Below, piece by piece: positions 1 to 43,266 of a stretch of DNA of 51,053 nt. The first letter of the stretch is position 1. Each line of letters starts with the position of its first letter. A program made the translations under genes and the position numbers. Source of the DNA: an uncultured Croceicoccus sp. (GTDB lineage: Bacteria; Pseudomonadota; Alphaproteobacteria; Sphingomonadales; Sphingomonadaceae); assembly GCF_947496385.1 (NCBI RefSeq), contig NZ_CANMCP010000014.1, positions 1 through 51,053 on the forward strand, given 5' to 3'. Under the pieces are notes generated by a model. It did no database searches and was not told the origin of the DNA. It worked only from the letters and a program-made list of their open reading frames with translations.

Positions 1-166
1 CGTGCGCCTTGATCAATCAGGCACCGCCACATCGCCGTCCGAACAACACGAAGCGGTAGCCTCATGAATAGGACGGGCTAGAGGTTTGGCATTATATACT
101 TGATTGCCAAAGACCTTCAGTCGATGAAGGGGCACTCCAAATTCTCTCAATCCGTGGGGCGTAGAT

Positions 167-2455
167 TTGTCAAAAGGGCTCAGCGGTTCGACTATTAAAT
201 CGTGGTTCCAATACCGCTGCGAGCGCAAGACGCGCTATGAGCTCATGAATGCCACTGAGCGGGCTTCAATCCCGATTGGATCAGATACCCGCGAGCAGAG
301 TTGGGCAATCCTCGGTGTAGACTACGAAGATCGAGTGGTGTCCAAACTAGCGAGGCAGCGGCAGGTTCACCTCAATGGGTCGGAGATTTGCCTCCCAACG
401 GCAATCACCAATGCCTTCCTAAGAGGCGAAGGGAGCAAAACGTTTGCAGCTCAGGTGAATGTGCGCCCGAAACAGATTCCCTCTGTGTTTGGCGAGATTG
501 CCGATTTCAACCTGCGAGACACATTCGCTGATCTCGTTCGCCGAGATTTCATCGATGGCAAACCGAGCTTCACGGTTATCGATATCAAGGCGACCCGCGC
601 TGCTCGGTCTTTCCACAAGACCCAGGTTGCTTACTACGCGATTTTGTTGAGCCAGGTCCTTTCCGAGAGGAAAATCGAGGGAACCGTCTCCCAGTTTGGA
701 GAAATCTGGCGAATTCCTGATAATGGGGATGCCTCTGGAGACGGCTACCAGGTCGACAGCTTCCCGCTTGCTCCATACATCCGGCTCGTCGAGAGCTTTG
801 TCGGGCAGACGCTGCCCAAGATTGCCGCGCGAGAAGTGTCACCTGGCACTGACGAGACCTTTTTCCATCTATATTTCAAATGTGAGCAATGCGCCTATTT
901 GACGCACTGCTTGACAGCAATCGATCCGGAAAGACCGCCCAACAAGCGGGACGTCTCTGCTGTTGCGGGTCTCTCACACGAAGGGAAGAGAGCCCTCCTC
1001 GATCACGGCATACGATCGGTCAAATCCTTGGCAGAGCGGGCGCAAGGCATCGGCAAAATGGATGGAGTCGGTTGGTCGCTTTCACGGCGAGCCGAACAAC
1101 TGATTGCCCGTGCTCGCGCAATCAATGCCGGCCATCTTCAAGCTGGGGCCGAAGAGCAGACTTTTCTGATGCCTCCGCGTTCTGACGTCTCAATCTACTT
1201 GCTGGCCGATCATGATCCAGTCGATGATGGTCTGGCGACGCTTGGCTATCTATTGGTCCGAGATGGAACTGTTGAAGAGACCATCAAAGTTCTTCCGACG
1301 GCTGACAGGAAGGCGGAGGCCGATGCGCTGATCGAGGTGTTCTCGAAAGTTATCGCCGATCTCCAAATCGTTGACGCGCACAATCAGGCGCTCTCCGACG
1401 ATGATTCAGGTGCCTTATTCGCACATATCTATCTCTATGAGCCGAGCGAGGCGAACGCGCTTCAGAACGCGGTGAAGAGACATCTGTCCGACGCGAGGAT
1501 CAGGACGGGTCTCTTACATCTCGTCCGCATATTTCCACCTGAAGAACTGGTGCCAGAGCCCGAGTTCAGGGGCATGAACCATTTGCCTGCGACTGCGGTG
1601 AGGACAGTTATCGAGCAGCTATTCGCGGTCCCAACGGCGGTATCCTATGACCTGCGGCAAGTATCACAGGCGATGGCAAACGATGGGCTCATCCCAAAGC
1701 CCTATGCCCCTAGCGAACCATTCCATCGCCCGTTTTCCTCACTTCTTTCAATTGAAGTAACACGTGGAATCCGAGAAGGACGCAAGGACCATGTGGCCAT
1801 AGCCGACGTCGAAGATGACGTTCGAGGCCGATTGAATGCCCTTCGCGAAATCGTCGAGTGGCTGCAGAAAGACAATCGCGACCGCACTGATCGCAGCGAG
1901 CGACCCACTTTGCGATTGAACAAGCTACCCTTCCGTTTGCAGGCAACCTTCGACCCGCTTGAAGCCGGTGACCTCGATATCCTTCGCGCTTTGGAATTGT
2001 TGGAGAATCGAGCCGGAATGCTGGATACGTTGATCCGTCTCGCAAAGCCGGCCTCGTCCCGGCGCGATAGTGGCAACGCAATCGGACCGCTTTTTCTTAT
2101 CGGAATCAACAAGACCAAAATGGGCCGAGTCTTCGTGTTTCGACGACCCGCCGAAGCTATGGACGTTGATCTTGAGGGTGGGCTGGGCCTCGTCTTGAGC
2201 GATGGGAGCCCTGATGTACTCCTCGATCCGCGCCGATGGCCTGACCTGAGCTGCCAGCTGATGGATCCTGGACCGAACGATGACACAGGAATACTCAGGG
2301 TCGGTGTCTGGAATTCTGTCTTCGATAGTCCAACGATGAAAGACCTTGTGCGCCGCCTCGACAGGGATGGGTGGTGGATTGACCGAACATTCGTCGACTT
2401 TAATTCGCCCAAGGTGGCACGCTTCATCGACTATCTTGCTGGAGAAGCAGCATGA
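167..2455 (+). CDS. RecB-like PD-(D/E)XK nuclease with RNase H-like middle domain (TM0106-type, helicase part split off)
   Basis: 762 residues. The N-terminal ~270 residues look like a RecB/Cas4-type nuclease: an opening SxIKSWFQYRCERKTRYEL segment, a VIDIKATRA stretch that fits the D...xK core, and a FKCEQCAYLTHCL cysteine cluster at about 238-250 that could hold an iron-sulfur cluster or zinc. A helix-hairpin-helix-like stretch (VSAVAGLSHEGKRALLDHG) follows, then an RNase H/YprB-like region starting near SIYLLADHDP. This order is that of TM0106-family proteins, which normally continue into a Dna2-like SF1 helicase; here that helicase begins the next gene. The start is TTG: the frame is closed upstream at 125-127 and ATG 245 would remove the conserved opening. 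It ends in an ATGA overlap with the next gene, implying coupled translation and a complex. Likely role: nuclease arm of a defence or repair complex. Family assignment is inferred from motifs. Confidence 0.75.
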   Translation: MSKGLSGSTIKSWFQYRCERKTRYELMNATERASIPIGSDTREQSWAILGVDYEDRVVSKLARQRQVHLNGSEICLPTAITNAFLRGEGSKTFAAQVNVRPKQIPSVFGEIADFNLRDTFADLVRRDFIDGKPSFTVIDIKATRAARSFHKTQVAYYAILLSQVLSERKIEGTVSQFGEIWRIPDNGDASGDGYQVDSFPLAPYIRLVESFVGQTLPKIAAREVSPGTDETFFHLYFKCEQCAYLTHCLTAIDPERPPNKRDVSAVAGLSHEGKRALLDHGIRSVKSLAERAQGIGKMDGVGWSLSRRAEQLIARARAINAGHLQAGAEEQTFLMPPRSDVSIYLLADHDPVDDGLATLGYLLVRDGTVEETIKVLPTADRKAEADALIEVFSKVIADLQIVDAHNQALSDDDSGALFAHIYLYEPSEANALQNAVKRHLSDARIRTGLLHLVRIFPPEELVPEPEFRGMNHLPATAVRTVIEQLFAVPTAVSYDLRQVSQAMANDGLIPKPYAPSEPFHRPFSSLLSIEVTRGIREGRKDHVAIADVEDDVRGRLNALREIVEWLQKDNRDRTDRSERPTLRLNKLPFRLQATFDPLEAGDLDILRALELLENRAGMLDTLIRLAKPASSRRDSGNAIGPLFLIGINKTKMGRVFVFRRPAEAMDVDLEGGLGLVLSDGSPDVLLDPRRWPDLSCQLMDPGPNDDTGILRVGVWNSVFDSPTMKDLVRRLDRDGWWIDRTFVDFNSPKVARFIDYLAGEAA

Positions 2456-5400
2456 GTGTTCGCACTGACGTGCTGCGGTTCTTGCAGGAGCCGAAAGCGT
2501 TCTTCGATGATGTCAGCGATGGCGATGTTTGGCTCGCAGGCCTCAATGAATTTGCCATCCCCTCGATCGAGGAGAAGGGAGACAGGCATCTCCGGGAGGC
2601 TCAAGTCAGTGCCTGGGAAGGCCTCGCCCACAGAAAGACAGGATTGATCCTTGGACCGCCCGGGACCGGGAAGACGTTTTTGCTCTCCTGGCTGATTGCT
2701 GGCTACTGTGCGGCCCGGCGTAAAGCGGGGTTACCAGCCCGAGTGCTCGTCACGGCGTTCACTCGCAACGCGATCGGAAACGTTCTTGATGCTGTGCGGG
2801 ATCGGCAAGTGCTGCATGATCCGAGCGCACCGCCACCGCTTTTCCTCGGATCGCCGCCAGCAGGAGGGCTCGCGGACGGCGTGCTCACCTACGGCGCAAA
2901 GGAGCAAGGTCAGGTCATCGACCACCTCAATGGCGGCGAAGCTGTGACGGGGATGACAGTCTGGTCTCTCTACAGACTTCTGACGACAGGTACTCCGCCG
3001 GGTGGCGATGGCATGAGCGCTCCGCTTTTTGACCTGGTCTGCATTGACGAAGCCTCGCAAATGGTCCTCGGACACGGTCTACTTGCTATGGCTGGACTGG
3101 CCGATGCGGGGCGCGTGGTGGTTGCAGGAGACGACCAGCAATTGCCGCCCATCAGAGCCGGTAGACCGGTAACCATCGAAGGTCGCGAATTGGGCGGATC
3201 GCTTTATGCGTTCATGAAATCGGTTGGTGCCGACGAATTTGCGCTGGAAGAGACCTTTCGTCTCAACAAACCTCTCACATATTTCCCCGAGAAGACCTTC
3301 TATCCCGGCAAATACGTGTCGCGTTCTGAAGCCAGTAAGCTTGAATTGCGCGAGGACTGGCAAGCTGACTTGTCACAAACCATACGCTTGGCGCTAGCAC
3401 CTGATTATCCGCTCGTCGTCCTTCTCCATGATGGCCCCACTGCCGCTACCGCGAACCCGTTCGAAACACAGATCGCGAGTGAGATTGCAGCCGCATTTGC
3501 CCACCGCCTGACAGCTGATGGAACTCCGCCGTCCGATCTCTGGAGCAAACGGCTCGCGATCGTCAGCCCGCACAGGGCGCAAAATGCGGCGATTAGAGCG
3601 GGGTTACCTGACTCCATTCGAGCCGACGCGTTTGTTGAGACAGTCGATCGCATTCAGGGCAAAGAGCGGGATGCAGTCATCCTATCATATTGCGTGGCGG
3701 ACCCAGAATTCGCACTCACGGAAGCTGAATTCATATTTTCGCCTGAACGATTGAATGTTGCGGCGACGCGAGCGGGAAAGAAGCTGATTGTTATTGTCAG
3801 CAAGCGCCTCCTGGAAGCCGTACCATCTGACCAGGAACTGCTCGATAAGGCAGAACTCTTGCGCGAGTTTGTGTTTTCCTGCCCCTCGATCGTGACCTCT
3901 CAGATACAAGGTCCCGCGGGACGCTCCGTAGCGATTGATATCAGGGCGAGGGGCTTCGATGACAACGAAGCCGACGTTGATCTGACGCCTGATCCGCCGC
4001 CGGTGGAAGTGAAACACGAGATGACCGACCTGGCACGAGGTGTCCTCGAAGTCATCAATCGGCTCGCACTCGACAGCGCATATGGAAATGCAGCCTTGTC
4101 AAAGGTCAAGAGTGCCATGGCCTTACCGGCTGAGCCATTCGCTGAAGCGTGCCTGCTTCATCACCTCGGATGGATTTCGTTACGCCAACAACCCCGGCGC
4201 GATGGCGGTGAACCCTTCTGGGTCGCAAAGCCATTCAAGGAAGCTCGCAAGGTCTTCAGTGTAGACTACGACACCGTCAAGAGCCGCATCGAGATGTGCG
4301 TGCGCGAGGCCAAGACCAGGCGCTATGCATTTTACACGGACGTGCGCGATCGCTTTGCTTGGATGGACAAGGAGCGCAACGATCTTTTGGCTCCTGTAAT
4401 CAGTCGCCTGGAGGAAGAAGATTTCTTACGCCTCGAACCTGTAGGCAACTCGTTTGCGATCGTTGTGAAGGCACTTGCAGAACTCGATTCTCTGCCGGAG
4501 CCGGATGAGTTGGATGGGCTCGGCGACGAGGATTTTGCAGCGCTCAATCGCTTGGAAGAGCTCGAAGCAAGTCGCATCAATTTCGGGGTCTATGACAGCT
4601 GGGTGTCGACGGTCGAACTCGCTCGAGATCTCAAGGTCCCTCTCGACCAGTTGACCGCATCCTTGTCCAAGCTTGAGGCGCATGGCCACTTGCTTCTGGC
4701 GGATGAAGGCAGAGTGCGCAGTCGCTTCGCGGAGATTGGGCGAGAACTTAAGCACGTTAAGCAGCGCTTTCGCAGCGACGATGCAGACACACGCCCCTAT
4801 TTGGTTCGGAGCCTAAAGGCCGTCCTTCGAGAGCGAAACAAACCCACCCGATCCATTCGTTTGGCAAGCGCTTTCGATCAGGCTTCGAAGGGCACCGATT
4901 CCTCGATGGGACATGCTCTTTCGGGGATGGCGCGCGTTCTGCACGAGTTTTGGAGCGAGGAAGCAGCCTTAGCGAAATTCCAGGCCGACAGCCTGACGAG
5001 TATCGTTGCGGCCTGGCGCGGTGAAGGAGAAGACGCTTTTTCGATCGCCGCTGACACAGGGTCAGGGAAGACCGAAGCTGCAGTATTGCCGCTGATCGCG
5101 GGAGCTTTGGCTGACGGCATCGACGGGGTGATGGGCACTCGTGCGATCCTAGCCTACCCACGCATTCGACTGGCCGCCAATCAGGCACAGAGATTGGCCC
5201 ACTACTTGTCGATGTTCGGAGCCGACCAAGAACTCCCAAAACTTACCCTCGGCCTTCAAGTGGGTGAGGTTCCTTGGGACTTCGAACGAATTCCAGAAAG
5301 GCTTCAATCCCTTTGGAAGGTTGCAGGGCCGAACGCGTTTGTCTTCCCATTCTTTGCTTGTCCTAGCTGTCAACATGAGCTGATCCTTCGGCCAAGCGCA

Positions 5401-8400
5401 GGAGCCAAGGGCGCCGACCTCCTGGCCTGCAACGACTGCAAATGGTCATTTGATGGGTGGATCGGCTCGAAGACTCGGTTGGCCGAAACGCCCCCTAGCC
5501 TCTTCCTGCCGACCACCGATAGCTTGCACCAATGGCTTCATGATCCAAGATATGGTCGCATTTTTGGCGACGACATGGACTGTGCGGCTCCGCGTGCGCT
5601 TCTGGCAGACGAGATCCATCTCTACACCCATATCCATGGGGCTCAGGTGGGCCTTGCTCTCCAGCGCTTGGCAGCGCGTGCGCAGACTTCGAGAACCGAT
5701 GGAAAGCCAATGCTGGCGATCGGGATGAGCGCCACGGTTGGCGACCCTGCGTCAGCATGGTCGAAGCTCATCGGCCGCGATCAGATAAAGGTCATCCAAC
5801 CGAGCGAAGAAGATGCCGAACCAAACCCGAGAGGGCGTGAATACTTCTACTTCGTACAACCTGAGGTTGAATCTCGCGGAGCAGACATTGCCGGTGCATC
5901 TACGACCATCCAATCGCTTATGTGCATTGGCCACGGCATGCGACGACGAACTGGATCTGATGGCGGCTTTCGCTCCCTCGTATTCTTCGATTCAATCGAC
6001 AAGATGCGGCGTCTGCACAGCGCATTTATCGACGCTGAGGAAGGAAGAGAGCTAGCTGCTTATCGCACCCGCGCATATGGAGATGATGCTGCCGGGGAGC
6101 CTCAGACAGAATGTTGCGGACAGCCGCTTGGCTGCGGAAGGTTCGCGGATGGGGAATGCTGGTGGTTTGCCGCAACTGACAATCGGCAAGTCGGCGCGAA
6201 GGGAAGAAGAACGCCGGGCCAACCGCTCGCGGTAGCTTCGTCGCCAATCTTCTCTGGTACTGGCGGTAACGCGGAACGCCTTGTGAAAGGCTCGGATGTA
6301 GTGTTCGCAACCTCCTCACTCGAGGTTGGGTACGATGATCCGGACATCACCCTCGTTTACCAGCACTATGCGCCGCTCAACCTCGCCAGCTTTGTGCAGC
6401 GAAAAGGCCGCGGCGGACGGGGCGCAGACGACCGGCCCACAACTGCGGTGACGCTCTCCATCTATTCACCTCGCGACAACTGGTGGTTCAATAGACCTCA
6501 AGACATGGTCTCGCCTGTCGGCTTCGAGGCTCCGCTCAATCCATCAAATGCGTACGTCCGGCGAGGCCAGGCGGTGGCGACATTGCTTGACGGGCTTGCT
6601 CGGTTCGAACGAAGGGGTGGAAATGCGCTCAATCAATTCGGACAGCCGAACTCCGATGCCTTGGCATCGGCAAAGGACTTGCTCGATGTCATGTTCGGTG
6701 GAGCGATCTGGGACGAACTTGGGGTAAAAGACGCAGAGGCGCTCTGGGCAAAGGCAACTGAGGAGCTTGACCTCACCACCTGTGACACCATCCCCCAAGT
6801 TCGGATGGCTCTAACATGGGTGCCGGGAGCACTGTTCGAGACCATCAACTTGCCGACACTCGACATCCTGGGCGAGGATGTTGTCGGGGGAGAGCGTCAA
6901 GACATTTCGCTGGCATTATCGACGGTCGCGCCAGGCAACGCTACGAGGCGCTTTAGCGGACATGCCGTCCACTGGATTGCGCCGAACGAAGGCAGGGCAC
7001 CGTGGTTCGGCGAAAGCGATTACCTCGGGCGCGGTGGTCAAAGCCTGCGCGCATCGACGGAAGAGCTTCTAACCGAATTACCCATCGATGCCCGAGAGGC
7101 ATTGGCAGATGTCCACGAAACTCTGTTCAGGCCGAAGGCTATCACGGTCAGTCGCCTCGGACGGATGCAAGGCGCTGAATGGGTCGGCGAGATCTGCCTG
7201 AAGCAAAATGACCCTCGCCAATGGACAGAGGTGACGAGGGATGAAACCTCTGTCCGCCATGATAGCCGGGGAGAACTAGCAGGCTTCGTCCTAGTTTCCG
7301 CCAACTGCGAACCCGCCGAACTTCTCTCAGTTGAGGATACCAATGGCAAACTCAGCAAGCTCGGCGTCTATCTGGCAGGCGTCACCGAGAACAAATCTTC
7401 GGGTCTCGACATTGCGAGAGTTTATTGGGGGGCCGACGCGGAAGTCCGCTTCGATTCACGAGAAACTGAGCCAGTCGCATTTAATCAGACCTTCGTGCAT
7501 CCCAAGACGCAGCGTGCGTTGCTGCACGGCTACAAGGTTACCACTGAAGGAATTCGGTTCGAACTCGGAAAGGACGCCATCGATCTGGCTGTCGAAGAGA
7601 CTTTCGCGAAAATGGAACGCGACCAGCAGGAGCGCCGCTGGCGAAGCGCACAGTTCACACGCTACCTGGTAGACAGTCGTGCCCGTTCTATCGGGATTAA
7701 TGCCTACGAAGCTCGTCGCGGCGCAGATTTACTTGTGGCCGCTGCCGGCGACCCCGAGCTGCGCACCGAACTCGCCAAGCTAGTCCGTAGGCGCTGGGAT
7801 GATCGGCGCTTTTCATCCCTGCTGGAGGACGCAAGGCAGCGAGTGCTTTCCTGCCATCCGATGATGACGCAGCGCCGAGTAGAGCGAACTGCGGGCTTGC
7901 TCGCCAATGCCAGGTTTCGAGACATGCTCGATCAAATTTTGACTGAAGTTGGCGATGAGCAAAGTATGCGCGGCTATCTAAGGAGTTCGCTGCTGCATGG
8001 CGTTGCACTTCGTTTGAAGTCAGCAGTAGCGATGCTTGGCGGAGGCGATGAAGGCCGCATGTTCGCGCATGTTCGTCTGCCCCTCCAATTCGGCCAGGAT
8101 GCGGAAGATCTGATTACGGTTGCGGAAGCGGGCTCTCATGGAGACGGCACGATCAGATCCGCGGTTTCTCAAACGGACAAACTTATGCAGATCTGGTCGA
8201 ACCACCAACTCTGCGAATGTGGCAATGCAGTCGAAGACGCGATGCTTCGAGTTTTCTGGAGCCTGCGTTCAAAGCACGACCAATGGCGCAGCTTCAACCC
8301 TCGCGACCCATCCGCGCTAACGGCGATATCGCAAGAGCTGAGACCAGGCGCCGATAGGCCGCTTCCGGCTTCGATTTCCCGTGTCTTGTTTGGAACCGAG

Positions 8401-8769
8401 AGCGTCGGCGCGGAGACATTTTCCCTATATGATATCGCGGAAGACGTTGAACAGGCGCGAGATCGGACCATCGAGAGAATGGGACGAATCCCGACCGATT
8501 GGGAGCTTGCCAGTGCCGCTGTGACTGATGCTGAAAGTGGGGCAAGCGGCGAGTTAGCGCGGTTGTTGGAAGCTTATGGCCTCCTCGACGAACCGGACGA
8601 GGAATCCTTTAGTCCCACGGCCAGGCTCGCGGAACAGGTTTTCCGTTTGGGAGCATCGCTTTGTCACGATGGTTGCAGGGCTTGTGTACACCAGTCGAGC
8701 GACCTCATGGGTGACTCCCTGGTCTATGCGAGCACCAGTCGGACACTGCTGGAACGCTTCCTAGCCTAA
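2452..8769 (+). CDS. Giant double helicase: SF1 (Dna2/UPF1-like) fused to DpdJ/DruE-like SF2 helicase
   Basis: 2105 residues. The first ~480 form an SF1 helicase: Walker A GPPGTGKT (68-75), DEAS (199-202), GDDQQLPP (226-233) and C-terminal motifs VETVDRIQGKERDAV and NVAATRAGKK. A linker with probable winged-helix folds follows (about 500-830). Then comes a second, SF2 helicase: GSGKT near 870, a four-cysteine motif (CPSC...CNDC, about 967-1003), DEIH at 1053-1056, SAT near 1093, a cysteine-rich CCGQPLGCG element near 1220, and QRKGRGGRG near 1316. The C-terminus has CHDGCRACVH (about 2070-2079), typical of the DUF1998 region of MrfA/DrmA/DruE/DpdJ-type helicases. The SF1 half appears to be the missing half of the upstream nuclease protein. 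I know no family with exactly this fusion, but could not search. Its stop overlaps that of the convergent operon by 4 bp. Helicase identity is sure; defence role is inferred from context. Confidence 0.85.
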   Translation: MSVRTDVLRFLQEPKAFFDDVSDGDVWLAGLNEFAIPSIEEKGDRHLREAQVSAWEGLAHRKTGLILGPPGTGKTFLLSWLIAGYCAARRKAGLPARVLVTAFTRNAIGNVLDAVRDRQVLHDPSAPPPLFLGSPPAGGLADGVLTYGAKEQGQVIDHLNGGEAVTGMTVWSLYRLLTTGTPPGGDGMSAPLFDLVCIDEASQMVLGHGLLAMAGLADAGRVVVAGDDQQLPPIRAGRPVTIEGRELGGSLYAFMKSVGADEFALEETFRLNKPLTYFPEKTFYPGKYVSRSEASKLELREDWQADLSQTIRLALAPDYPLVVLLHDGPTAATANPFETQIASEIAAAFAHRLTADGTPPSDLWSKRLAIVSPHRAQNAAIRAGLPDSIRADAFVETVDRIQGKERDAVILSYCVADPEFALTEAEFIFSPERLNVAATRAGKKLIVIVSKRLLEAVPSDQELLDKAELLREFVFSCPSIVTSQIQGPAGRSVAIDIRARGFDDNEADVDLTPDPPPVEVKHEMTDLARGVLEVINRLALDSAYGNAALSKVKSAMALPAEPFAEACLLHHLGWISLRQQPRRDGGEPFWVAKPFKEARKVFSVDYDTVKSRIEMCVREAKTRRYAFYTDVRDRFAWMDKERNDLLAPVISRLEEEDFLRLEPVGNSFAIVVKALAELDSLPEPDELDGLGDEDFAALNRLEELEASRINFGVYDSWVSTVELARDLKVPLDQLTASLSKLEAHGHLLLADEGRVRSRFAEIGRELKHVKQRFRSDDADTRPYLVRSLKAVLRERNKPTRSIRLASAFDQASKGTDSSMGHALSGMARVLHEFWSEEAALAKFQADSLTSIVAAWRGEGEDAFSIAADTGSGKTEAAVLPLIAGALADGIDGVMGTRAILAYPRIRLAANQAQRLAHYLSMFGADQELPKLTLGLQVGEVPWDFERIPERLQSLWKVAGPNAFVFPFFACPSCQHELILRPSAGAKGADLLACNDCKWSFDGWIGSKTRLAETPPSLFLPTTDSLHQWLHDPRYGRIFGDDMDCAAPRALLADEIHLYTHIHGAQVGLALQRLAARAQTSRTDGKPMLAIGMSATVGDPASAWSKLIGRDQIKVIQPSEEDAEPNPRGREYFYFVQPEVESRGADIAGASTTIQSLMCIGHGMRRRTGSDGGFRSLVFFDSIDKMRRLHSAFIDAEEGRELAAYRTRAYGDDAAGEPQTECCGQPLGCGRFADGECWWFAATDNRQVGAKGRRTPGQPLAVASSPIFSGTGGNAERLVKGSDVVFATSSLEVGYDDPDITLVYQHYAPLNLASFVQRKGRGGRGADDRPTTAVTLSIYSPRDNWWFNRPQDMVSPVGFEAPLNPSNAYVRRGQAVATLLDGLARFERRGGNALNQFGQPNSDALASAKDLLDVMFGGAIWDELGVKDAEALWAKATEELDLTTCDTIPQVRMALTWVPGALFETINLPTLDILGEDVVGGERQDISLALSTVAPGNATRRFSGHAVHWIAPNEGRAPWFGESDYLGRGGQSLRASTEELLTELPIDAREALADVHETLFRPKAITVSRLGRMQGAEWVGEICLKQNDPRQWTEVTRDETSVRHDSRGELAGFVLVSANCEPAELLSVEDTNGKLSKLGVYLAGVTENKSSGLDIARVYWGADAEVRFDSRETEPVAFNQTFVHPKTQRALLHGYKVTTEGIRFELGKDAIDLAVEETFAKMERDQQERRWRSAQFTRYLVDSRARSIGINAYEARRGADLLVAAAGDPELRTELAKLVRRRWDDRRFSSLLEDARQRVLSCHPMMTQRRVERTAGLLANARFRDMLDQILTEVGDEQSMRGYLRSSLLHGVALRLKSAVAMLGGGDEGRMFAHVRLPLQFGQDAEDLITVAEAGSHGDGTIRSAVSQTDKLMQIWSNHQLCECGNAVEDAMLRVFWSLRSKHDQWRSFNPRDPSALTAISQELRPGADRPLPASISRVLFGTESVGAETFSLYDIAEDVEQARDRTIERMGRIPTDWELASAAVTDAESGASGELARLLEAYGLLDEPDEESFSPTARLAEQVFRLGASLCHDGCRACVHQSSDLMGDSLVYASTSRTLLERFLA

Positions 8770-9464
8770 ATGGGGCGAACTTTGAGGACATCCAAAGAAC
8801 CATGTTCCTCAAGCCAAGCCCAAACTTCATCGGTCACGTGTTGCAAAGTTGCCTGTTCGTTTGCCAGAGCGTTGATAAAGAGTGCGACGTCCCCATCGCC
8901 CAACTCGTTTTCACGCTCAGCCTGTAGGGCTTCATAATCAGCAAACAATTGCTGAATTGTCGCAAGGAATTCTGAGGCCCTTGCTCCGTCTTGGACAGCA
9001 ATAGCCTCTCGGCCACATTTCGCCATTTTGCTGCCGAGATCCGATTGCCCCAGCAAGCGATCGAGTAGGTCTCCAATCGGTATCAGCGATCGAAATTGCC
9101 TCTGGACAATGTCATCCCAACGGGCGCGGAGGTCTCTATCCAGTCCGTTCAGTTCGCGATTGAGATCCTGTTCATACGCGAAAACCGCCTTATCGAGGGC
9201 CGTGACATCGGCGGACTCCTCCAGCTGGTTGCCGACATCCCAAGCAAGCTCAAGCACGTCGCTCAGCTTCTCTGCTCGTCTCGATTCAGAGGCATAGTCA
9301 AGGCGTGTCGCGATCTCTCTCAGCGCCTCGATACGCTTTACCCGCTCTGCTGCCGACGCCAGACTTGTCGTCGCCTTTCCCAAGTTCTCGCCGAATTTTC
9401 GCTGCTCGACTGCTGTTGGCAGATCGGTCAGGAGATGTTCGAGTTCTGCAAGTGCATCAGACAT
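8766..9464 (-). CDS. Helical (coiled-coil-like) protein of unknown function, last gene of the Dpd-like operon
   Basis: 232 residues, acidic and almost entirely predicted helical, with heptad-like stretches (LEHLLTDLPTAVEQRK; ERVKRIEALREIATRLDY). No catalytic motif, cysteine cluster or membrane segment is visible. It begins 17 bases after the stop of the 1078-residue ATPase and its own stop overlaps that of the convergent helicase gene by 4 bp, so it is the distal gene of the minus-strand operon. A structural or partner subunit of the ATPase is plausible. By position it could be compared with DpdI, but I do not recognise the sequence and make no functional claim. ATG at 9464 is preceded by an AAGGA element lying rather far upstream. 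Confidence 0.7.
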   Translation of the reverse strand: MSDALAELEHLLTDLPTAVEQRKFGENLGKATTSLASAAERVKRIEALREIATRLDYASESRRAEKLSDVLELAWDVGNQLEESADVTALDKAVFAYEQDLNRELNGLDRDLRARWDDIVQRQFRSLIPIGDLLDRLLGQSDLGSKMAKCGREAIAVQDGARASEFLATIQQLFADYEALQAERENELGDGDVALFINALANEQATLQHVTDEVWAWLEEHGSLDVLKVRPI

Positions 9465-9481
9465 CGACTATGCTCGCATCC

Positions 9482-12400
9482 TTAGTCCAGGCCGGTAGCC
9501 AATTTGATTTGCCGCCCGATCTCGTGAATTGCGGAGAGGGAAACTCCCTTTCCTGAAGCACTGACGCAGTCGCGCGCATGATCGCGCAACTCCTGGACAG
9601 CCTTTTCGCCTGATCGAGCGAGTTCAAGAATATCCTGAAGTTCGCGTGCTGGCTGTTCGGACAGCCAGGCAATTCGCAGCGGAAGCTTAGCCGGAATTTC
9701 ATCGTCATCGAGAAAGGCGTCGATCAATTCTTCGACTGCAGGGAACCGCTCGGAGTTGCGCTCGATTGCTCGCGGCAACTCTGCCTTCCAGCTTGCAACC
9801 AATTCGAATGCCACGTTTGGAAGCAAATTCGACGACTGCGTGATTGCCTTGTCCAGTCGATCCAGATGGCTTTCGATTGAAGCCTTTCGCAGCAAGAAGT
9901 CGAGCGCTTCGGCGCGATCCTTGACCTGTTTGAACTCAACAGATGCGATCGTAGACCGGTTCTTGTTCCAGTAACCGGCCAACTCCTTGGCTTTGCGCAT
10001 GTTCTCGGGCAGCCCGAGGTCGGCCTCAGGCGCTTCAACCATGAAGCCGCTGTCCCTCAATTGGATGATCGCCGCCAGGGTTTCGCTTGAATCGATCAAG
10101 CCAGGCGATTCCGTCGAGATGAGTTGCCTCAAGTCGACTCGAATGCGCTCGTGCCAGTTCTTGGTAGCGTTCAACCAGTCGTTCCACGGCTTGGAGCGCG
10201 CGCCAGGATCACTGACAGCTTCATCTTCATCACTGAGTATGTTGCGCAGTTGGTCGATCGGCTCTGCCTTCGGATCGAGCACGCCTCGCAGCCATGCCCG
10301 AGCCTGGAGAACCTGCGTCATGGCGCCGGCCGGAGACCAGATCTTACTGTCTTCCGTCAATGGCAGGCGGCGTTCGAGATAATCGACCGCGAGGGTTTCC
10401 AGGCGGCGCATCAGAATTGACAGGTTCCGAAGATGGAAAGCCCGATCCTCGGTACCAAGTGTAGCCCGGTCGATATCGAGAGTAAGATAACTTTCAAGCC
10501 CGACACGAACCCACTCTTCTGGCGGAATTACCAGATAGTCGCGCGATCCGGACGTGCTGCCGTGGAGCTTGACCATCTCCTGTGTGATGATCTTGTCGAA
10601 CAGGAAGGGAGCAACGCCGGTCGAACGCTTATCGAGACTATCGACGAGTAAGTGCAGCAAGCCATTCCATTGGCTCGCGTTCTCAAGTCCTTTGCCTTGC
10701 ACCCATTTGGCGAGATCGAGCCGCATCTGCTCGCGCTTGTTGCGAGTGGGCCCGCGGTTGCGAGGAGGGACGCTCGTCCGGTTCGTATTCCTCGAAGTGA
10801 CCTCAGATATGAGACGCCGCCTTTGCTCACCTGGCTCTGCGACTTCGGTTTCCTTCGTTTCCTCCGTGGCTGGCGATGGTTCTTGAGAGGGAGGCGCAGG
10901 TGACGGGGCGACGGCTGGCCCAGCCATCGTCGCCTCATCTTGGCCAATCCAAGGCAGCCCAAACGCCTCGAAGATCGTTCGGGTAACGCCAGCGAAAGCG
11001 AGCTCGCCTTCGAGTTCGACCGTGTCAGCGGATTCTGGATTTCCCCAGTAGGTAACCAGCCGGCGGAATCTCCGCGCCTGATCATCGTCTTCGATTTGAG
11101 CGGCAATTATCTGCCCGAGACGGGGTGCCACAGCGATATCGGGCTTCCGTGACGGCTCAAACGCCGAATGCTCGATCAGAGGTCCAGGGAATCTCTGTTG
11201 TTCCAAGAGTTCCGGCTGCGAGAGGTTCGGTACAACAACGGCCTGCAATATACCGCGCGGCGTACGCCATGTCTGGCCATCATCATCCACCTTGAGCGCT
11301 TCGTAGAACCTCGCGAGAGCTGTTTCCGTAAAGGGGAATAGTCCAACACCTTCGCTATCGCCGAAAGTCTTGAAACAACTCTCCTGTTTAGCGCAGGCAT
11401 TGCAGGGATTTGGCGGTGGCTCGAGCCCGCTTGAATCTTGGTTTGCTGTTCGCCAGGCTCTCAAGGCATCGGATCCTGCACGCACCGCGTTAAGATAGCG
11501 CGATACGAAGGCGACACGTTCTTTACCTTCCAGATCGTCGACATCGCCTCCGGCCATTTCGCCCAACCGGATCTCATGCGTGATCCGTTGGCGATAGTTG
11601 GCCTGAAGTTGTCTATAGTACGCGGGCGTAAGGCCAACGACCGAGATCAATGGACAAACGTCCTGCTCCGCCTCGTCTCCTCGTGCCGTAGCGTTGAAAA
11701 CCAGCACGTCGATCAGGCTGTCATCGAGGCCTTCCCAACTTGTAATATCCTCTAGCAGAAGGACGAGGCGCATATCCCGGGTTGCCAACGCCTGTCGGAC
11801 CTTTCGGAAAAGGGTCTTGAGACCCTGTGCAGAAACGCCAAGGACATTCTGGATTGCATCGTTTCTTCGGCGATTCAGCGACGCGATCAACTCCAGTGTG
11901 GTAGGAATTTCGTCCGCAATTTCACTGGCGATTTCGTCGGGAAGCCAGTTGTCGCGCTTTAGGCTCTTGATCTTGTCGGATTCGGTCGCGAGAGCACTAC
12001 CGAGTTTCTTGGCTCCACCTAGGAGTTGTGACGCATATTTGTAGGCGATGTCTCCAAGTTCAGCGACGTCGAATACATTGAAGGAGGCGCTTTGCTGATC
12101 ACGGTTGCCATCGGCTCCGTCCAGCAATGTCAGTATCCGAGAGGGAGCAGACCATTGGCTCCGTATCTGGCTGTTCCCGAGCAATTCATCTGGGCGATAG
12201 CGCTCGCACCACCGTTCGTCAGGCATCTCTTCCTCGAAATGCCCTGGGGCCATCATCGCAGAAAGCGTGTTCAGAAAGATATTGGCTCGCCCCTGCAGGG
12301 TCGCTCGCTGGGGCGTGCCGAGCCCTTCGAAATGCTCGTGAAATTCTTCAGGGAGACGGTCCTTTAACTGTCGCAGAGCTCCTTCGAGACTCCCGTCTGC

Positions 12401-12718
12401 GCGTCTCAGAAGGAGCTTTACGTCTTTACCTTTCGGCCAATTGACCGAGAGCCATCGTATCAGGTGTGACTTACCTGATCCCGGCTCACCCTGAACCACA
12501 CAAAAAGCATGCTCTCTATCGGGATCGGATAGGGAAGTGAGTACCGCCTGCTCATCTGCCCCCTCCAAGTCCGCCGCGCTGGTGCCACTGACCTCGAAAC
12601 CATGGATTGGCGTATGTGTCGCGAGAAAGACTGCATCATCGCCCTCAAGGGCTTCTGTAACCAGCATCGAGCGCGTTTGTTGTGCGGTCCAGCAAACGCG
12701 GAAAGGATGTTCACTCAT
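9482..12718 (-). CDS. dpdH: DpdH-like large P-loop ATPase
   Basis: 1078 residues. The opening region (VFLATHTPIHGFEV) followed by a Walker A GEPGSGKS at 77-84 and a Walker B-like VLLLEDITSWEG near 315-330 is the arrangement I associate with DpdH, and more distantly with the large BREX ATPases of the PglY/BrxC kind. A cysteine group (NPCNACAKQESC, about 435) may bind metal. The middle holds a low-complexity proline/glutamate linker (about 590-640), the rest is helical. DpdH belongs to the restriction, not the modification, half of the Dpd system in Salmonella, as I recall it. Its ATG shares one base with the stop of the DpdG-like gene (TGATG), so the two are translationally coupled. An AAA-type motor that moves or senses DNA for a partner nuclease is the likely role. 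Other large defence ATPases are the main alternative. Confidence 0.65.
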   Translation of the reverse strand: MSEHPFRVCWTAQQTRSMLVTEALEGDDAVFLATHTPIHGFEVSGTSAADLEGADEQAVLTSLSDPDREHAFCVVQGEPGSGKSHLIRWLSVNWPKGKDVKLLLRRADGSLEGALRQLKDRLPEEFHEHFEGLGTPQRATLQGRANIFLNTLSAMMAPGHFEEEMPDERWCERYRPDELLGNSQIRSQWSAPSRILTLLDGADGNRDQQSASFNVFDVAELGDIAYKYASQLLGGAKKLGSALATESDKIKSLKRDNWLPDEIASEIADEIPTTLELIASLNRRRNDAIQNVLGVSAQGLKTLFRKVRQALATRDMRLVLLLEDITSWEGLDDSLIDVLVFNATARGDEAEQDVCPLISVVGLTPAYYRQLQANYRQRITHEIRLGEMAGGDVDDLEGKERVAFVSRYLNAVRAGSDALRAWRTANQDSSGLEPPPNPCNACAKQESCFKTFGDSEGVGLFPFTETALARFYEALKVDDDGQTWRTPRGILQAVVVPNLSQPELLEQQRFPGPLIEHSAFEPSRKPDIAVAPRLGQIIAAQIEDDDQARRFRRLVTYWGNPESADTVELEGELAFAGVTRTIFEAFGLPWIGQDEATMAGPAVAPSPAPPSQEPSPATEETKETEVAEPGEQRRRLISEVTSRNTNRTSVPPRNRGPTRNKREQMRLDLAKWVQGKGLENASQWNGLLHLLVDSLDKRSTGVAPFLFDKIITQEMVKLHGSTSGSRDYLVIPPEEWVRVGLESYLTLDIDRATLGTEDRAFHLRNLSILMRRLETLAVDYLERRLPLTEDSKIWSPAGAMTQVLQARAWLRGVLDPKAEPIDQLRNILSDEDEAVSDPGARSKPWNDWLNATKNWHERIRVDLRQLISTESPGLIDSSETLAAIIQLRDSGFMVEAPEADLGLPENMRKAKELAGYWNKNRSTIASVEFKQVKDRAEALDFLLRKASIESHLDRLDKAITQSSNLLPNVAFELVASWKAELPRAIERNSERFPAVEELIDAFLDDDEIPAKLPLRIAWLSEQPARELQDILELARSGEKAVQELRDHARDCVSASGKGVSLSAIHEIGRQIKLATGLD

Positions 12719-13611
12719 CAGTGCTTCACCTCGGGCCAGATTTCGACCTCATCGAAGCTTACGCTGCGCGTGGTCGGATCCGGGCAAAGCGAGATTGCAT
12801 CGGCGGTATCCCGCGACAGCTTGAGCGAGATCTTCCCTTCCGAACTCAGGTCCCGCAGAGCGTTGCTCAAAACCGCTGAAAGCGTCCTGGTGTCTGCGGT
12901 GTAGCCTTTCCTTGCGCATGCCTGCCTAAACAGTCGCCCCCTATCCAAGTAAGGACACCGGTTCGCCAAGAGGTCAACAAAGGCTCCGGCCGGCATGGAA
13001 GTTTGCTCTTCGACGCCGGCTCTCCGCATCTCAATCTCGATCCGCCTCGCCGGCAAAGGATAATCCACCAGCCTAGCGTCAGGCATCTTGACGCTCAGTC
13101 CCATGAAGAGCAGCCAACGTCTCCACGCAGGGACTTTGGTCGGATTCATTAGCCGCCCGTCCTCGTCCTCGCCGACCAATCCAGCATCCACGAGATCGGC
13201 GAATTCAGCAGCCCCCAACTCATAGAGCCAGCCCAAATCACGCCGGGAATGGCTTTCGACCACCAGCCACGCATAGGCTTCGGCGATGACCGCTTCGATA
13301 TTGCCTTCATCTCGACTGCAAAGAAAATCGTGGACGTAGTCCGCCAACTGCGCCGGTGTCTTTAGCTCGCCCACATCGTGCAATTGGATCTCGTCTCCAT
13401 TGCGTTCGACCAGTTCCAGCGCTGTCGCGGCCCCTGTTCCGTTTGCGGCATTCGTCGCCTGAGCCGCGACCTGCTGCCCTCCAGCGGAATAGCCAGGGTT
13501 TAAGATGGAAGAAAATTCACCGCGCGGAAGTCTCCCACCCAGAGCGCCTAGTCCCGCAATCAAAGACCAGACACGCTCTGGCGTACCTTGAGGGTTAGAG
13601 AGAATACTCAT
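12718..13611 (-). CDS. dpdG: DpdG-like protein
   Basis: 297 residues without an obvious catalytic motif. The N-terminus (NPQGTPERVWSLIAGLGALGGRLPRGEF) and a C-terminal part (SAVLSNALRDLSSEGKISLKL) look like winged-helix segments, so DNA or protein binding is possible. It sits between a RecQ-like helicase (9 bases upstream) and the 1078-residue ATPase (one-base overlap). That position and size match DpdG, which lies between DpdF and DpdH in Dpd restriction clusters. The assignment depends mainly on gene order and size. Its biochemical role is not known to me. Confidence 0.55.
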   Translation of the reverse strand: MSILSNPQGTPERVWSLIAGLGALGGRLPRGEFSSILNPGYSAGGQQVAAQATNAANGTGAATALELVERNGDEIQLHDVGELKTPAQLADYVHDFLCSRDEGNIEAVIAEAYAWLVVESHSRRDLGWLYELGAAEFADLVDAGLVGEDEDGRLMNPTKVPAWRRWLLFMGLSVKMPDARLVDYPLPARRIEIEMRRAGVEEQTSMPAGAFVDLLANRCPYLDRGRLFRQACARKGYTADTRTLSAVLSNALRDLSSEGKISLKLSRDTADAISLCPDPTTRSVSFDEVEIWPEVKH

Positions 13612-13620
13612 TCCTAGAAC

Positions 13621-16068
13621 TCAGCCCCCTGCCAAAGACATGAGAAATTCTTGTGAGATTGGTGCGTGATGGGAAACCCACTGGTCAAATCTACGCCCAC
13701 GATACTGCCTGTCCCGCCTTGCAACGACAATAGAGGTAAATGCCGCATCCTTAGCCCATTGAACAAAGCGTTCTACGTGCCACCCGTTTCTTTCATCAGG
13801 AGAGACGAGCAATGCGGTCGGCAGATTGGCAAGTTTGCGGCCTTCGGTCCATTCATCCAGTGTAAGAATAAGTCCGAGCACTTTAGGATCTTGACCAAGG
13901 GCATCCGCAATCCCCTCGGCGAGTTCTGCATCGACCACAAATTGCTGGATCCCGATGCTCGTGATTGTGTGGACCAGCGCTGGCAAATTGGTCTCAAGAG
14001 TACGATCCACGGGTTCGACCAAATGCACGCCATGAGAGATCTTCGAGTTTTCGAAGGCGGGCGTGTCCTGCCAGGCCGCCTCCAGGCCCATGGCCTCAAC
14101 ATGCCGCGGGGGCCTGATCATCTGATCTCTGCAGTGAGGACAACGACCGCAACTCGGCAGGCAGGTATTGGGCTCGATGAGCTCGAAGGCTGTCCTCACC
14201 ATGCATGCATCAAGCGGCTTGCGGACGAGATTGAGCCAGGGTGTTAATTCGTCTCGTGCGTTGGCCACTTCTCGATCGCGATGCTCATAAATCTTGTCCC
14301 AGGCCGATGTAGGGTCATCCGACAGAAGGCCGCCGTCACTGATTTCGATCTCCCATACGCGCGCTTCGTCACCGCCCTTTGGCTTCACGGCTTTGATTGA
14401 AATGACCTGAGCGCGCTGAAGAAGCGTGAGCAACGCCATGTTCCAATTTCGATTATAGTCTGTCGATTCTGGCCGAAGGCCCTCTCTGATCGCGTTGAGG
14501 TCGACGCTCATGTGCCATTTGCCGCCCACCCAGCCTTGGTCCGTTGCTGAGGATCGCATCGCCGCCCATCGCTTCTCGGCCAACTCGCGCGTCAACCAGC
14601 CGCCAACGGCCATCCGTCGAGCCGTTGAAACATCATCTCCGCCTTCTCTAGAGCCAGTAAACAGCAAGGCGGCGAATGCTTGCCCACCATCGCGCGCGGC
14701 GCGACCAATTTCCTGATACCAGCGTGCCGCGCTCTCCGGCAGGCACGCATGAATGACGGAACGGACATCGGCCTTGTCGATGCCGATACCAAAAGCAGAC
14801 GTTGCAACGATCAGATCGTAGTGATTGTTTGACCAATCCTCGATGATCCGCCGTCTATCTGCCGAACCCGTGTCACCCGTGAAGAGAGCCATCTTTTGAT
14901 AGCCTCGATCATCGGACAACCATTTGAAAATGCGTTCTGCGTCGACCACTTCGGTCGTGTAAATAATTGCAGGGCGAGGGGCACGATCGACCACGAACGA
15001 CAGCGCTTCCTGCCTTTCCTCGTCTGAACTGCACTGGCTAACAACAATATCATGTTCGTAGCGCGGGACCCTGGCGTCGATCTCCAGCCAGTCGCCGGTT
15101 AGCGACCAATCGCGCCGCAGGATTGCCCGTGCTGAAGGTGGCATGGTCGCGGACAGCAGCACCGCACGTAACTCGGGGTTGGATCGACGAAGCTCCGCGA
15201 GCAATCCGGGAAGGCGTTGGAAGTCGGGACGAAAGCTTCTGCCCCAACTCTCAATTATATGCGCTTCATCGACAAATAAGTGGGTAAGGCGGCCGTTAAG
15301 TCCAAATGCGGCGGCTTCAGGCGAAGCGACCTCTACTAATCGACTGACAATATCTGAGCGGAGTGCAAGCTCTGGCCCCAGCAGCAAGATAGGGATTTCT
15401 CCGCGCCTGAATGCATCGACCACATCTCGGATACCTTCACTGCCGAGATCTCCGATCAACGCGCGGCTACCCTCCAAACCCGGGATTCCCCGCAAAGTTC
15501 GCTCATGGTCGAGCGCTAGCGCTATTGTCGGTGTCACAACGACTACGCACGAACCCACGTGCGATTCCCTTCCGTGAAGGGCTGCCAACTGAAACATCAA
15601 GCTTTTGCCAGCGCCTGTCGGGAGCGACACAAGCAATCCCGATCCAGCAGGGGCAGTAAAGAGAGCCCGGACCGCGGCCTTTTGGGAAAGCGATCGATAG
15701 CCGGGAAGACTGGTCAGACGACGCAGAATGCCATCGCCGACACCTTCCTCAAGATAGCGTCGACTCTGGGAATCGACGTGGATCTGAGGCCACCAGGACG
15801 GTCCGTTCTCGTCACGTATCCGGATCGCGCTTGGACCGATCCTAGCGAGACCAAATCGTGCAAGACCCTCATCGCTGAATCCAGAAAACTCGTGATCGTC
15901 AGATTCAAATCTTCCACCACTCAGCCATGCCAACGTCCGAAGCAATGCAAGCCGATCACACTCGCTGGTGCTCCGGTCCAAGGCCGCCAGAGTTCGCGTT
16001 CTCAATGCCGGGGCCCATGCCTGAGAGAGCCATGGATTGTAACGGGCAGGTTCTGATCCAGTGCTCAT
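13621..16068 (-). CDS. dpdF: DpdF-like RecQ-family DNA helicase
   Basis: 815 residues from the ATG at 16068; an upstream TTG at 16098 would add ten residues, but a GAAGAAGTGAGAG purine run sits just before this ATG. Motifs run in SF2/RecQ order: Walker A LPTGAGKS, VDEAH followed by the RecQ-like ESWGRSFRPDF, SATMPPSAR, and the helicase C-terminal motifs ATSAFGIGIDKADVR and YQEIGRAARDG. A zinc-binding-like CLPSCGRCPHC cluster stands at about two thirds of the length, and a C-terminal alpha/beta region of ~150 residues follows. It is the first gene of the minus-strand operon, so its product probably unwinds DNA for the ATPase and nuclease partners. RecQ-type helicase is certain; the DpdF label follows from domain content and the downstream G and H genes. 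Confidence 0.75.
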   Translation of the reverse strand: MSTGSEPARYNPWLSQAWAPALRTRTLAALDRSTSECDRLALLRTLAWLSGGRFESDDHEFSGFSDEGLARFGLARIGPSAIRIRDENGPSWWPQIHVDSQSRRYLEEGVGDGILRRLTSLPGYRSLSQKAAVRALFTAPAGSGLLVSLPTGAGKSLMFQLAALHGRESHVGSCVVVVTPTIALALDHERTLRGIPGLEGSRALIGDLGSEGIRDVVDAFRRGEIPILLLGPELALRSDIVSRLVEVASPEAAAFGLNGRLTHLFVDEAHIIESWGRSFRPDFQRLPGLLAELRRSNPELRAVLLSATMPPSARAILRRDWSLTGDWLEIDARVPRYEHDIVVSQCSSDEERQEALSFVVDRAPRPAIIYTTEVVDAERIFKWLSDDRGYQKMALFTGDTGSADRRRIIEDWSNNHYDLIVATSAFGIGIDKADVRSVIHACLPESAARWYQEIGRAARDGGQAFAALLFTGSREGGDDVSTARRMAVGGWLTRELAEKRWAAMRSSATDQGWVGGKWHMSVDLNAIREGLRPESTDYNRNWNMALLTLLQRAQVISIKAVKPKGGDEARVWEIEISDGGLLSDDPTSAWDKIYEHRDREVANARDELTPWLNLVRKPLDACMVRTAFELIEPNTCLPSCGRCPHCRDQMIRPPRHVEAMGLEAAWQDTPAFENSKISHGVHLVEPVDRTLETNLPALVHTITSIGIQQFVVDAELAEGIADALGQDPKVLGLILTLDEWTEGRKLANLPTALLVSPDERNGWHVERFVQWAKDAAFTSIVVARRDRQYRGRRFDQWVSHHAPISQEFLMSLAGG

Positions 16069-16166
16069 GGCTCTCACTTCTTCCAGAGCCAAACACAAAA
16101 ATCAAAGCATCATCGCCACATCCTGTTGAACCAAAAGAGGATTGGCCCAATGATCGCGACAAAGGG

Positions 16167-21025: not shown

Positions 21026-21084
21026 TCTGGCTGGTCCTCGTCACGGCTCCCCTCGCGGCCGAGTAATCCCTCCCCATTTGCCTT

Positions 21085-23397: not shown

Positions 23398-23719
23398 GGG
23401 AATGGCCTCCCATGTTTGCGTTGACGAGGAGGCCAAGACGTTCGAGGCGTCTCCGGTACGCCTCGTGGGTACGGTCGCGCAAACTCGCATCAGAATGGCT
23501 GGCCAGAAGCGCATCGAGCGCTACCGAAATGAAGATAGACTGGCGCGCTGGATCGAGCCCTGCGGGGCGGTCCTTCACGTCGTTATCGCGCTGCCACGCT
23601 GCGACAATGAGGTCACGGACAAAGACGCTGACACTGACGCCATGGTCCGCGGCACACTGGCGAACCCAGTTACCAACGGAGGGAGATACGAATGTCTGAA
23701 GCCGATCTTGTCGGGTCAT
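23387..23719 (-). CDS. Small mobilisation accessory protein (possibly ribbon-helix-helix)
   Basis: 110 residues from ATG 23719; an in-frame start at 23806 would add 29 residues of non-conserved appearance. The N-terminal part (TRQDRLQTFVSPSVGNWVRQCAADHGVSVSVFVRDLIVAAW) fits a ribbon-helix-helix DNA-binding fold and the C-terminus is helical. It is the first gene of the accessory-coupling protein-relaxase cluster and lies next to the candidate oriT. This is typical of proteins that bind oriT and recruit the relaxase. The second transfer module has an analogous gene at 43267. Confidence 0.65.
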   Translation of the reverse strand: MTRQDRLQTFVSPSVGNWVRQCAADHGVSVSVFVRDLIVAAWQRDNDVKDRPAGLDPARQSIFISVALDALLASHSDASLRDRTHEAYRRRLERLGLLVNANMGGHSHEA

Positions 23720-28892: not shown

Positions 28893-29206
28893 GGGAGTTC
28901 TCCTGATGACCGGGACAGACATGTCCCGGTTCAGGAAAATCAAAGCCCTCTCCCCTCTCGATTAATGCGCACAGCTATGCGCCTCACTCCAGTCATCGAA
29001 GAGTGCCGACGATCGCACGAAAGCGAACATCGGAAAAGTCGCCTCGATCTGTCCGCGATGTCGGACAATTTGGACTGTCCACTAAGGGTGGCGATCAGGT
29101 GAAAGCGGACGTTCCGAACATTTGCTCGAGAGCGTGAGCGTTCCCAGTGCCGTTCAACGCGGCCGCCGCTCGAGCCAAGCACCCACATCGCACTAGGATT
29201 GAGGTA
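28893..29206. other. Gene-free boundary between transfer region and CBASS
   Basis: 314 bases without a gene. The right part carries an imperfectly placed inverted repeat, TGTCCG (29050-29055) with CGGACA (29062-29067). The ArdC-like gene promoter should lie at the left end. I see no direct repeat or attachment site marking the CBASS insertion. Confidence 0.4.
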
Positions 29207-30115: not shown

Positions 30116-30117
30116 GT

Positions 30118-30151
30118 GTATAGTTCCTTGACGGGTATAGTTACGATACCC
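30118..30151. promoter_or_regulatory. Probable CapW operator
   Basis: GGGTATAGTTACGATACCC at 30133-30151 is an inverted repeat (GGGTAT/ATACCC, 7-base spacer). GTATAGTT occurs at 30118-30125 and again at 30135-30142, a 17-base direct spacing. The site begins 3 bases upstream of the capW start codon and 83 bases before the CD-NTase gene, where autoregulation and operon control would both be possible. Confidence 0.6.
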
Positions 30152-30233
30152 ATATTGTTTCTAGCGGGTCGGCAACCCGAGTCGCGTATCTGACCGCCCG
30201 CGTCAAGGACGGAGGGCTACCGGAGACGATTCG

Positions 30234-31199: not shown

Positions 31200-31208
31200 G
31201 AGGTCACG

Positions 31209-43200: not shown

Positions 43201-43266
43201 CTAAGCGTTCAGACCCTCGCAATTCTGCCATTTCTGGAGCGCGCTTCGCGCGCGCGGGAGGTGGTG

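Follow-up and report, generated by a model that had tools for sequence, protein, structure and literature searches.

A Dpd Restriction Island of an Uncultured Croceicoccus, Split by a Contig End, with a Cas4/Dna2-like Nuclease beside a Helicase-Fused DpdJ

The Restriction Genes at the Contig End

The stretch of DNA analysed here (the window, 51,053 nucleotides) is contig C14 of an uncultured Croceicoccus sp., taken from its first base. Between positions 167 and 16098, it carries six uninterrupted open reading frames, namely a nuclease gene and five genes related to those of Dpd islands, that is, of restriction-modification systems that use 7-deazaguanine DNA (Table 1). Marking genes of such an island are found on a second contig, C1, of the same genome. 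An earlier note on this DNA, made from the letters alone, had described two convergent operons, and all six reading frames were recovered where it had located them. The genes for the nuclease and DpdJ on the plus strand converge with dpdI-H-G-F on the minus strand; 4 bases are shared between the nuclease and DpdJ frames (2452-2455) and another 4 between the DpdJ and DpdI-like frames (8766-8769). For DpdF, an alternative ATG start at 16068, used in the earlier note, would give a protein of 815 amino acids (aa).

Table 1. Features at the left end of the window (SF1 and SF2, helicase superfamilies 1 and 2).
Feature	Position	Strand	Details
End of a multi-copy insertion sequence; contig break	1..77		Identical 77 bases at C16:1-77
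Cas4/Dna2-like PD-(D/E)XK nuclease, RNase H-like middle region possible	167..2455	+	762 aa, TTG start, four invariant cysteines
DpdJ	2452..8769	+	2105 aa; N-terminal SF1 (UPF1/Dna2-type) helicase and SF2 DpdJ core
DpdI-like protein	8766..9464	-	232 aa; position and weak profile match
DpdH, P-loop NTPase	9482..12718	-	1078 aa; PDLC02884 1099 bits
DpdG	12718..13611	-	297 aa; NF041064 52.9 bits over 1-276, PDLC02874 33.2 bits
DpdF, RecQ-like SF2 helicase	13621..16098	-	825 aa from TTG; PDLC02862 812 bits

For the minus strand, the note had named DpdF, DpdG and DpdH in this order, and the PADLOC and NCBIfam profiles bear this out, with the DpdI-like gene following. Profile matches are strong for DpdF, DpdH and DpdJ, moderate for DpdG and weak for the DpdI-like protein, and the PADLOC scores of DpdJ (PDLC02895, 2629 bits over residues 1-2105), DpdH and DpdF lie far above chance. 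The nuclease and the giant helicase had been taken for a separate partner joined to Dpd. This view has to be given up, since the giant helicase is DpdJ itself and the pair is thus part of Dpd. An identity of the block with DISARM, Druantia or BREX was rejected as well: these systems gave partial helicase matches alone, for example 66 bits for BrxHI, 42 for DrmA and 38 for DruE against 2629 for DpdJ in the same protein (among the best 25 of 43 families). One study puts DpdJ together with SngC, BrxHI and DruE in what may be a single clade (PMC12278908).

The 232-aa protein may tentatively be called DpdI, mainly by its position, and a DpdI-like gene occupies the same place in relatives. DpdH shows a NACHT match of 27.3 bits at aa 73-100, with a Walker A motif at aa 77. 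Its AlphaFold model reached a mean predicted local distance difference test score (pLDDT) of 70.3 and a predicted template modelling score (pTM) of 0.42. The N-terminal part was poorly modelled, probably because the homologues supplied ended at their locus end. This model gave no Foldseek match at E <= 0.001, and a PDB sequence search with DpdH returned no credible match.

The Nuclease and the DpdJ Fusion

The similarity of the nuclease to Cas4 and PD-(D/E)XK models is weak (best E values of 4e-4 and 2.5e-3), and its match to the TM0106 RecB-like nuclease model (TIGR03491), with 36.9 bits and an E value of 2e-9, stays below the cut-off. An alignment of 25 rows was prepared from the window and 24 of the 32 loci described below; L015, L016, L025, L041-L043, L045 and L046 were left out as near-identical or partial. 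In all 25 rows, E54, D122, D139, K141, Q153 and Y157 are invariant, as are C18, C239, C242 and C248; in the middle region, the same holds for D348, D350, D403, N406, H420 and E425. The first set contains what we take to be, by the usual role and motif names, the PD-(D/E)XK residues with QxxxY and the four cysteines of Dna2/Cas4-like iron-sulfur nucleases. These cysteines would be expected to hold an iron-sulfur cluster. The structure model of the nuclease (pLDDT 84.3, pTM 0.72) has Dna2 (5ean) as its sole PDB fold match at E <= 0.001, followed by MGME1, with low whole-chain TM-scores throughout, and a PDB sequence search gave no credible match. A relationship of the nuclease to DpdD was considered and rejected (hhalign probability 0.05 %, with a profile of just two DpdD sequences).

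DpdJ carries an extra SF1 helicase at about aa 34-480 in front of its SF2 core (about aa 700-2105), and the corresponding domain matches are AAA_11/AAA_12 and DEAD/Helicase_C. PDB sequence matches of the front part are the NAM7, SMUBP-2 and DNA2 helicases. The PADLOC DpdJ model spans 2112 positions, and the fused form must therefore already have been contained in the profile set of 2023.

A single-chain counterpart of the nuclease and the DpdJ front is found in Chlorohelix. This 1326-aa protein (WP_341472082.1) matches the nuclease profile through its residues 31-816 (hhalign probability 99.3, E 4.8e-20), and its residues 852-1303 correspond to DpdJ 34-477 (31% identity). Since these alignments run end to end, the nuclease and the front of DpdJ line up with a single Dna2-like chain that has been divided, its helicase half being joined to DpdJ. 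Together, they are probably a split Dna2-like machine that was recruited as a Dpd effector.

The Marking Half of the Island

The earlier note had left two options for this locus, either the right-hand part of a Dpd system with dpdA, dpdB and dpdC to the left of base 1, or a defence system without modification genes. The evidence supports the first. None of the window proteins scanned is DpdA, DpdB or DpdC; all three are encoded at the end of C1, where dpdC-dpdB-dpdA-dpdB-queE-queD-queC run in one direction. DpdA (C1:3201-4463) scores 554 bits with NF041059 (cut-off 200), and the two DpdB proteins reach 379 and 461 bits, both over the NF041060 cut-off of 300. DpdC matches PADLOC PDLC02815 with 352 bits and has no NCBIfam match. 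Among the Que proteins, QueE (355 bits) and QueC (201 bits) exceed their cut-offs, and the QueD-like protein, with 78 bits, stays under a cut-off of 89. FolE is encoded elsewhere in the genome, which completes the set FolE, QueD, QueE and QueC for preQ0 supply.

The arrangement of the two halves emerges from relatives that carry both on a single contig, for which C1 74-7406 and the window from position 78 onward were compared. In Altererythrobacter CC-YST694 (L015), the identity is 96.8% for C1 74-7406 and 99.2% for window 78-2999; the C1 match ends at 8397 and the window match begins at 9912, which leaves a gap of 1.5 kb. An uncultured Erythrobacter (L016) is 98.4% identical to the C1 end and 99.8% to the window. 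For a Ponticaulis metagenome-assembled genome (L046), whose contig ends inside the nuclease gene, the values are 96.1% and 99.7%. In all three relatives (96-99.8% DNA identity), the ends of C1 and of the window thus face each other about 1.5 kb apart. In L015, the interval between queC and the nuclease gene (8073-9886) holds a gene for a PycTM-like membrane protein and one for a HAD hydrolase. Most of the former and the latter correspond to the approximately 1.5 kb replaced in the window's genome. A HAD gene also adjoins queC in the Dpd plasmid of Agrobacterium vitis.

The contig ends suggest what replaced this interval. Homology with the relatives begins at window position 78, directly after the insertion sequence end listed in Table 1. 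Insertion sequence ends, of two different kinds, cap both ends of the window and are also present at the ends of C1, C11 and C16. The second repeated end occurs at C1:1-73, C11:1-73 and window 50982-51053, with a partial copy of 86% in C21. One reading frame at the end of C1 resembles the tail of a transposase, presumably of the IS5 type. Hence, an insertion sequence would sit between the two halves in this genome, having replaced about 1.5 kb. The join of C1 to C14 rests on synteny rather than on reads, because the insertion sequence is multi-copy and the two window ends carry different insertion sequence ends. Most likely, the marking half is severed from the restriction half solely by an assembly gap. 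That the island seems to have no modification genes is due to the contig end; the genome itself has them. The case shows how an assembly that breaks at an insertion sequence can give the false impression of a modification-free defence system.

Occurrence in Other Genomes and Plasmids

A scan of genome contigs with the nuclease alignment yielded 32 loci in 31 genomes (L029 and L045 stem from one genome). In 28 of the 32 loci, the two halves of DpdJ come after the nuclease gene on the same strand; three of the remaining loci (L041, L043, L046) are contig ends, and one (L045) is a degenerate second copy. DpdH is present in 26 of these 28 loci, convergent to DpdJ in 25 and co-directional in L032, where F-G-H stand on the plus strand after DpdJ; the sequence retrieved for L018 and L035 stops short of the DpdH position. 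DpdA lies inside the fetched flank in 16 of the 32 loci (fragmentary in L042). The remaining 16 loci belong to 15 genomes, 12 of which encode DpdA over cut-off. Co-occurrence without dpdA, for which the earlier note had proposed a survey, is therefore not what the data display: the nuclease goes together with DpdA in 28 of 31 genomes. Among five plasmid records matching the nuclease, four do so at full length, and all four have the six genes and DpdA. The fifth, from Chlorohelix, encodes the single-chain relative and gave no match with the other dpd queries. In the class sample, the nuclease was found at E <= 1e-10 in one of 385 genomes, namely that of the window, and the variant must thus be rare.

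The complete dpdC-B-A-B-queE-D-C set together with the six-gene restriction set is also present in MT835580.1 (L081), an UNVERIFIED scaffold from human fecal samples labelled 'Bacteriophage sp.'. This scaffold looks like bacterial DNA, and its phage origin was not accepted.

Three components of canonical clusters were searched for in 36 genomes or records, i.e. the window's own genome, the 31 genomes and the four plasmids. DpdK, a phospholipase D (PLD) nuclease, was over cut-off in none of the 36, with no match in the own genome. The SNF2-type helicase DpdE did not exceed its cut-off of 500 bits in any of them and reached at most 29 bits in the own genome; helicase matches to the DpdE profile at E <= 0.001 were obtained for 33 of the 36 and for each of the 14 control genomes. 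The DpdD profile gave nothing in the 36, yet its controls gave no match either. With tblastn, DpdE, DpdK and DpdD of two canonical plasmids recovered one another as positive controls and found nothing in the window, in L007 (the end of C1) or in the stretches retrieved for the variant loci, which mostly extend just 10 kb past the nuclease, so that genes farther away would be missed.

Marking and restriction genes seem to have different histories. Trees were built from 19 rows, comprising the window and 18 loci in which the nuclease, the DpdJ core and DpdA are all close to full length. L035 and L038 group with the window's group in the DpdA tree (7 rows, support 100/100) and stand far from it in the nuclease and DpdJ trees. 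Constraining L035 and L038 to the window's group was rejected for the nuclease by the approximately unbiased test (p-AU 2.4e-8), as was their placement with L033 for DpdA (p 0.0017). The groups were named after the trees had been seen, and long branches are present. These results lend support to, and do not prove, an independent exchange of the two halves.

Proposed Mechanism and Alternative Explanations

That the six genes constitute the restriction half of a Dpd island is, as far as membership alone is concerned, scarcely open to doubt. The fuller statement, by which the Cas4/Dna2-like nuclease in addition works with DpdJ as the effector of this island, is in our judgement likely.

In the proposed pathway, QueD, QueE and QueC together with FolE of the same genome would make preQ0. 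DpdA and DpdB would then swap guanine in the cell's own DNA for preQ0, which DpdC would convert further; these steps follow the literature, and the genes for them are present. The roles of DpdA, DpdB and DpdC are described in PMC12839542. DpdF-G-H-I-J may survey DNA and recognise the missing mark. Judging from the anatomy of the proteins, the two motors of DpdJ could engage DNA that lacks the mark and unwind it, passing single strands on to the nuclease. The invader would thus be degraded by the Cas4/Dna2-like nuclease acting with the DpdJ-fused SF1 helicase, and not by DpdK.

Several points weigh against this interpretation. All five Dpd proteins of the window remain below their NCBIfam cut-offs (in bits, DpdF (NF041063) 469 for 550, DpdH 290 for 450, DpdJ 338 for 800, DpdG (NF041064) 52.9 for 80 and the DpdI-like protein (NF041066) 24.9 for 150). 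The TM-score of the Dna2 fold match is 0.15 by query length. Expression is uncertain, since about 1.5 kb upstream of the nuclease gene are replaced here, and it is formally possible that the window is joined to itself instead of to C1. Three of the 31 nuclease genomes are without a DpdA match. Weak DpdK matches occur in five of the 36 records. Four of the records (G394 Archangium, G395 UBP9 as well as G411 and G413 Sphingomonas) have DpdE-like proteins with 333-384 bits, which in G394 and G395 are encoded on the dpdA-bearing contig.

Among the alternatives, the one that survives best concerns the target of the nuclease. Resection and repair are known tasks of Dna2 and of Cas4/AddB-like nucleases. 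Conceivably, the nuclease and the SF1 helicase could therefore repair or resect breaks in the host's own DNA that arise during system action, rather than degrade invader DNA, and a separate cutting enzyme would be unneeded if DpdF-J blocked replication. We consider this unlikely, because DpdK, the endonuclease of canonical clusters in PMC5567051, is over cut-off in none of the 36 records, and another nuclease must act if cutting occurs.

The nuclease and its helicase might also be an unrelated defence gene pair that neighbours a Dpd restriction complex by chance, as could be suspected from the single-chain relative in Chlorohelix without dpd genes nearby. The SF1 helicase is, however, fused in frame to DpdJ, a Dpd component, and both DpdJ halves follow the nuclease in all loci other than the four contig-end or degenerate ones, which renders this explanation quite improbable. 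A modification-free system that recruited DpdF-G-H-J without dpdA, suggested by the lack of marking genes among the window proteins scanned and by the three genomes without DpdA, is barely credible, given the DpdA/B/B/C and QueE/D/C genes at a contig end of the own genome, the 28 of 31 genomes with DpdA, and the size of the contigs behind the three misses (8.1 kb for L018, 4.4 kb for L041 and 5.7 kb for L043), which we take to be fragments. The genomes of L018, L041 and L043 yielded no DpdB and no DpdH either, the DpdH search being one without a positive control.

Returning to the Dpd effector interpretation, a more ambitious version of it would be that these loci represent a distinct, mostly alphaproteobacterial Dpd class. 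Here, an iron-sulfur Cas4-type nuclease and a DpdJ with helicases of two superfamilies would form a split Dna2/AddAB-like resection machine that 7-deazaguanine marks keep inactive and that passes between islands as a unit, independently of the marking genes. For the time being, this is a tentative idea that we rate as possible and not as probable.

Surrounding Genes

To the right of the island (window 18101-23514), a TrwC relaxase and a TraD-type coupling protein are encoded, and to its left (L007:7487-17109) TraG/H/F/N/U/TrbC. With Tra/Trw genes on both sides, the Dpd island sits amid F-type conjugation genes. At window 43056-45458, the contig encodes another TraD-type coupling protein (TrwB_AAD_bind 433 bits) in addition to that at 21085-23514, so it may combine portions of two conjugative elements. 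An ArdC-type antirestriction protein (ArdcN and a zincin-like metallopeptidase domain) is encoded at window 27963-28943, on the same contig as the restriction island. Window 29207-33402 carries, on the plus strand, an operon that resembles a cyclic-oligonucleotide-based antiphage signalling system (CBASS) with a cyclase (488 bits), a HORMA protein (274 bits), TRIP13 (443 bits) and the nuclease NucC (354 bits). A divergent WYL regulator gene lies upstream of this operon.

Comparison with Known Dpd Systems

The GATOR-GC preprint (PMC11888242) describes a synthesis operon dpdA-C and a restriction operon dpdD-K and reports 2,335 unique islands with 146 gene compositions, among which dpdB has the most extra copies (801). 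In the available part of PMC5567051, where DpdK is the PLD endonuclease of canonical clusters, the nucleases commonest beside tgt are of the PLD family or Cas4-like and come with a helicase. The same kind of nuclease and a helicase are found here; the fusion to DpdJ, the loss of DpdE, DpdK and DpdD and the conserved six-gene block are not mentioned in that part. The layout was also not found described in our literature search, including the available parts of PMC6884629, PMC6159554, PMC12707154 and PMC12904381; this search did not reach the main Dpd papers of 2016, 2018 and 2023 or the review of 2024.

Another Dpd variant with an SF1 helicase is carried by a plasmid of Deinococcus taeanensis. 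Among its Dpd restriction genes, at L080:20850-23707, a gene for a UvrD/PcrA-like SF1 helicase comes after one for a DpdK-like protein (51 bits, cut-off 100). The helicase gene occupies the position of DpdD and was considered as such, a reading that was rejected in favour of the helicase assignment.

With TM0106-family or Dna2-like single chains such as that of Chlorohelix, the locus shares the order of a Cas4-like nuclease and a UPF1-type SF1 helicase. Here, in contrast, two genes encode them, the helicase is fused to the SF2 core of DpdJ, and the TIGR03491 match of the nuclease is below the cut-off (36.9 versus 97.45 bits). The canonical plasmids of Enterobacter cloacae and Agrobacterium vitis run dpdE-F-G-H-(I)-J-K-D in one direction, and their DpdJ proteins have 1478 and 1517 aa, whereas DpdJ of the window, with the SF1 helicase added, has 2105 aa. 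The two dpdB copies recur in the canonical A. vitis example. Compared with Dpd of the Salmonella Montevideo type (dpdA-C for synthesis, dpdD-K for restriction), the island has dpdA, dpdB, dpdC, queE/D/C and F-G-H-(I)-J in common. It differs in that DpdE, DpdK and DpdD were not found, that a Cas4/Dna2-like nuclease is extra, and that J is convergent with F-I instead of co-directional.

Taken together, a textbook Dpd island is excluded, and the locus is a contig-broken member of a nuclease-swapped variant of a known system. What appears mildly new is that a Dna2-like pair of nuclease and helicase replaces the nuclease commonly present. As this variant keeps F-G-H-(I)-J without detected DpdD, DpdE or DpdK, it narrows the recognition core shared with the canonical systems to F-G-H-(I)-J and points to one testable effector.

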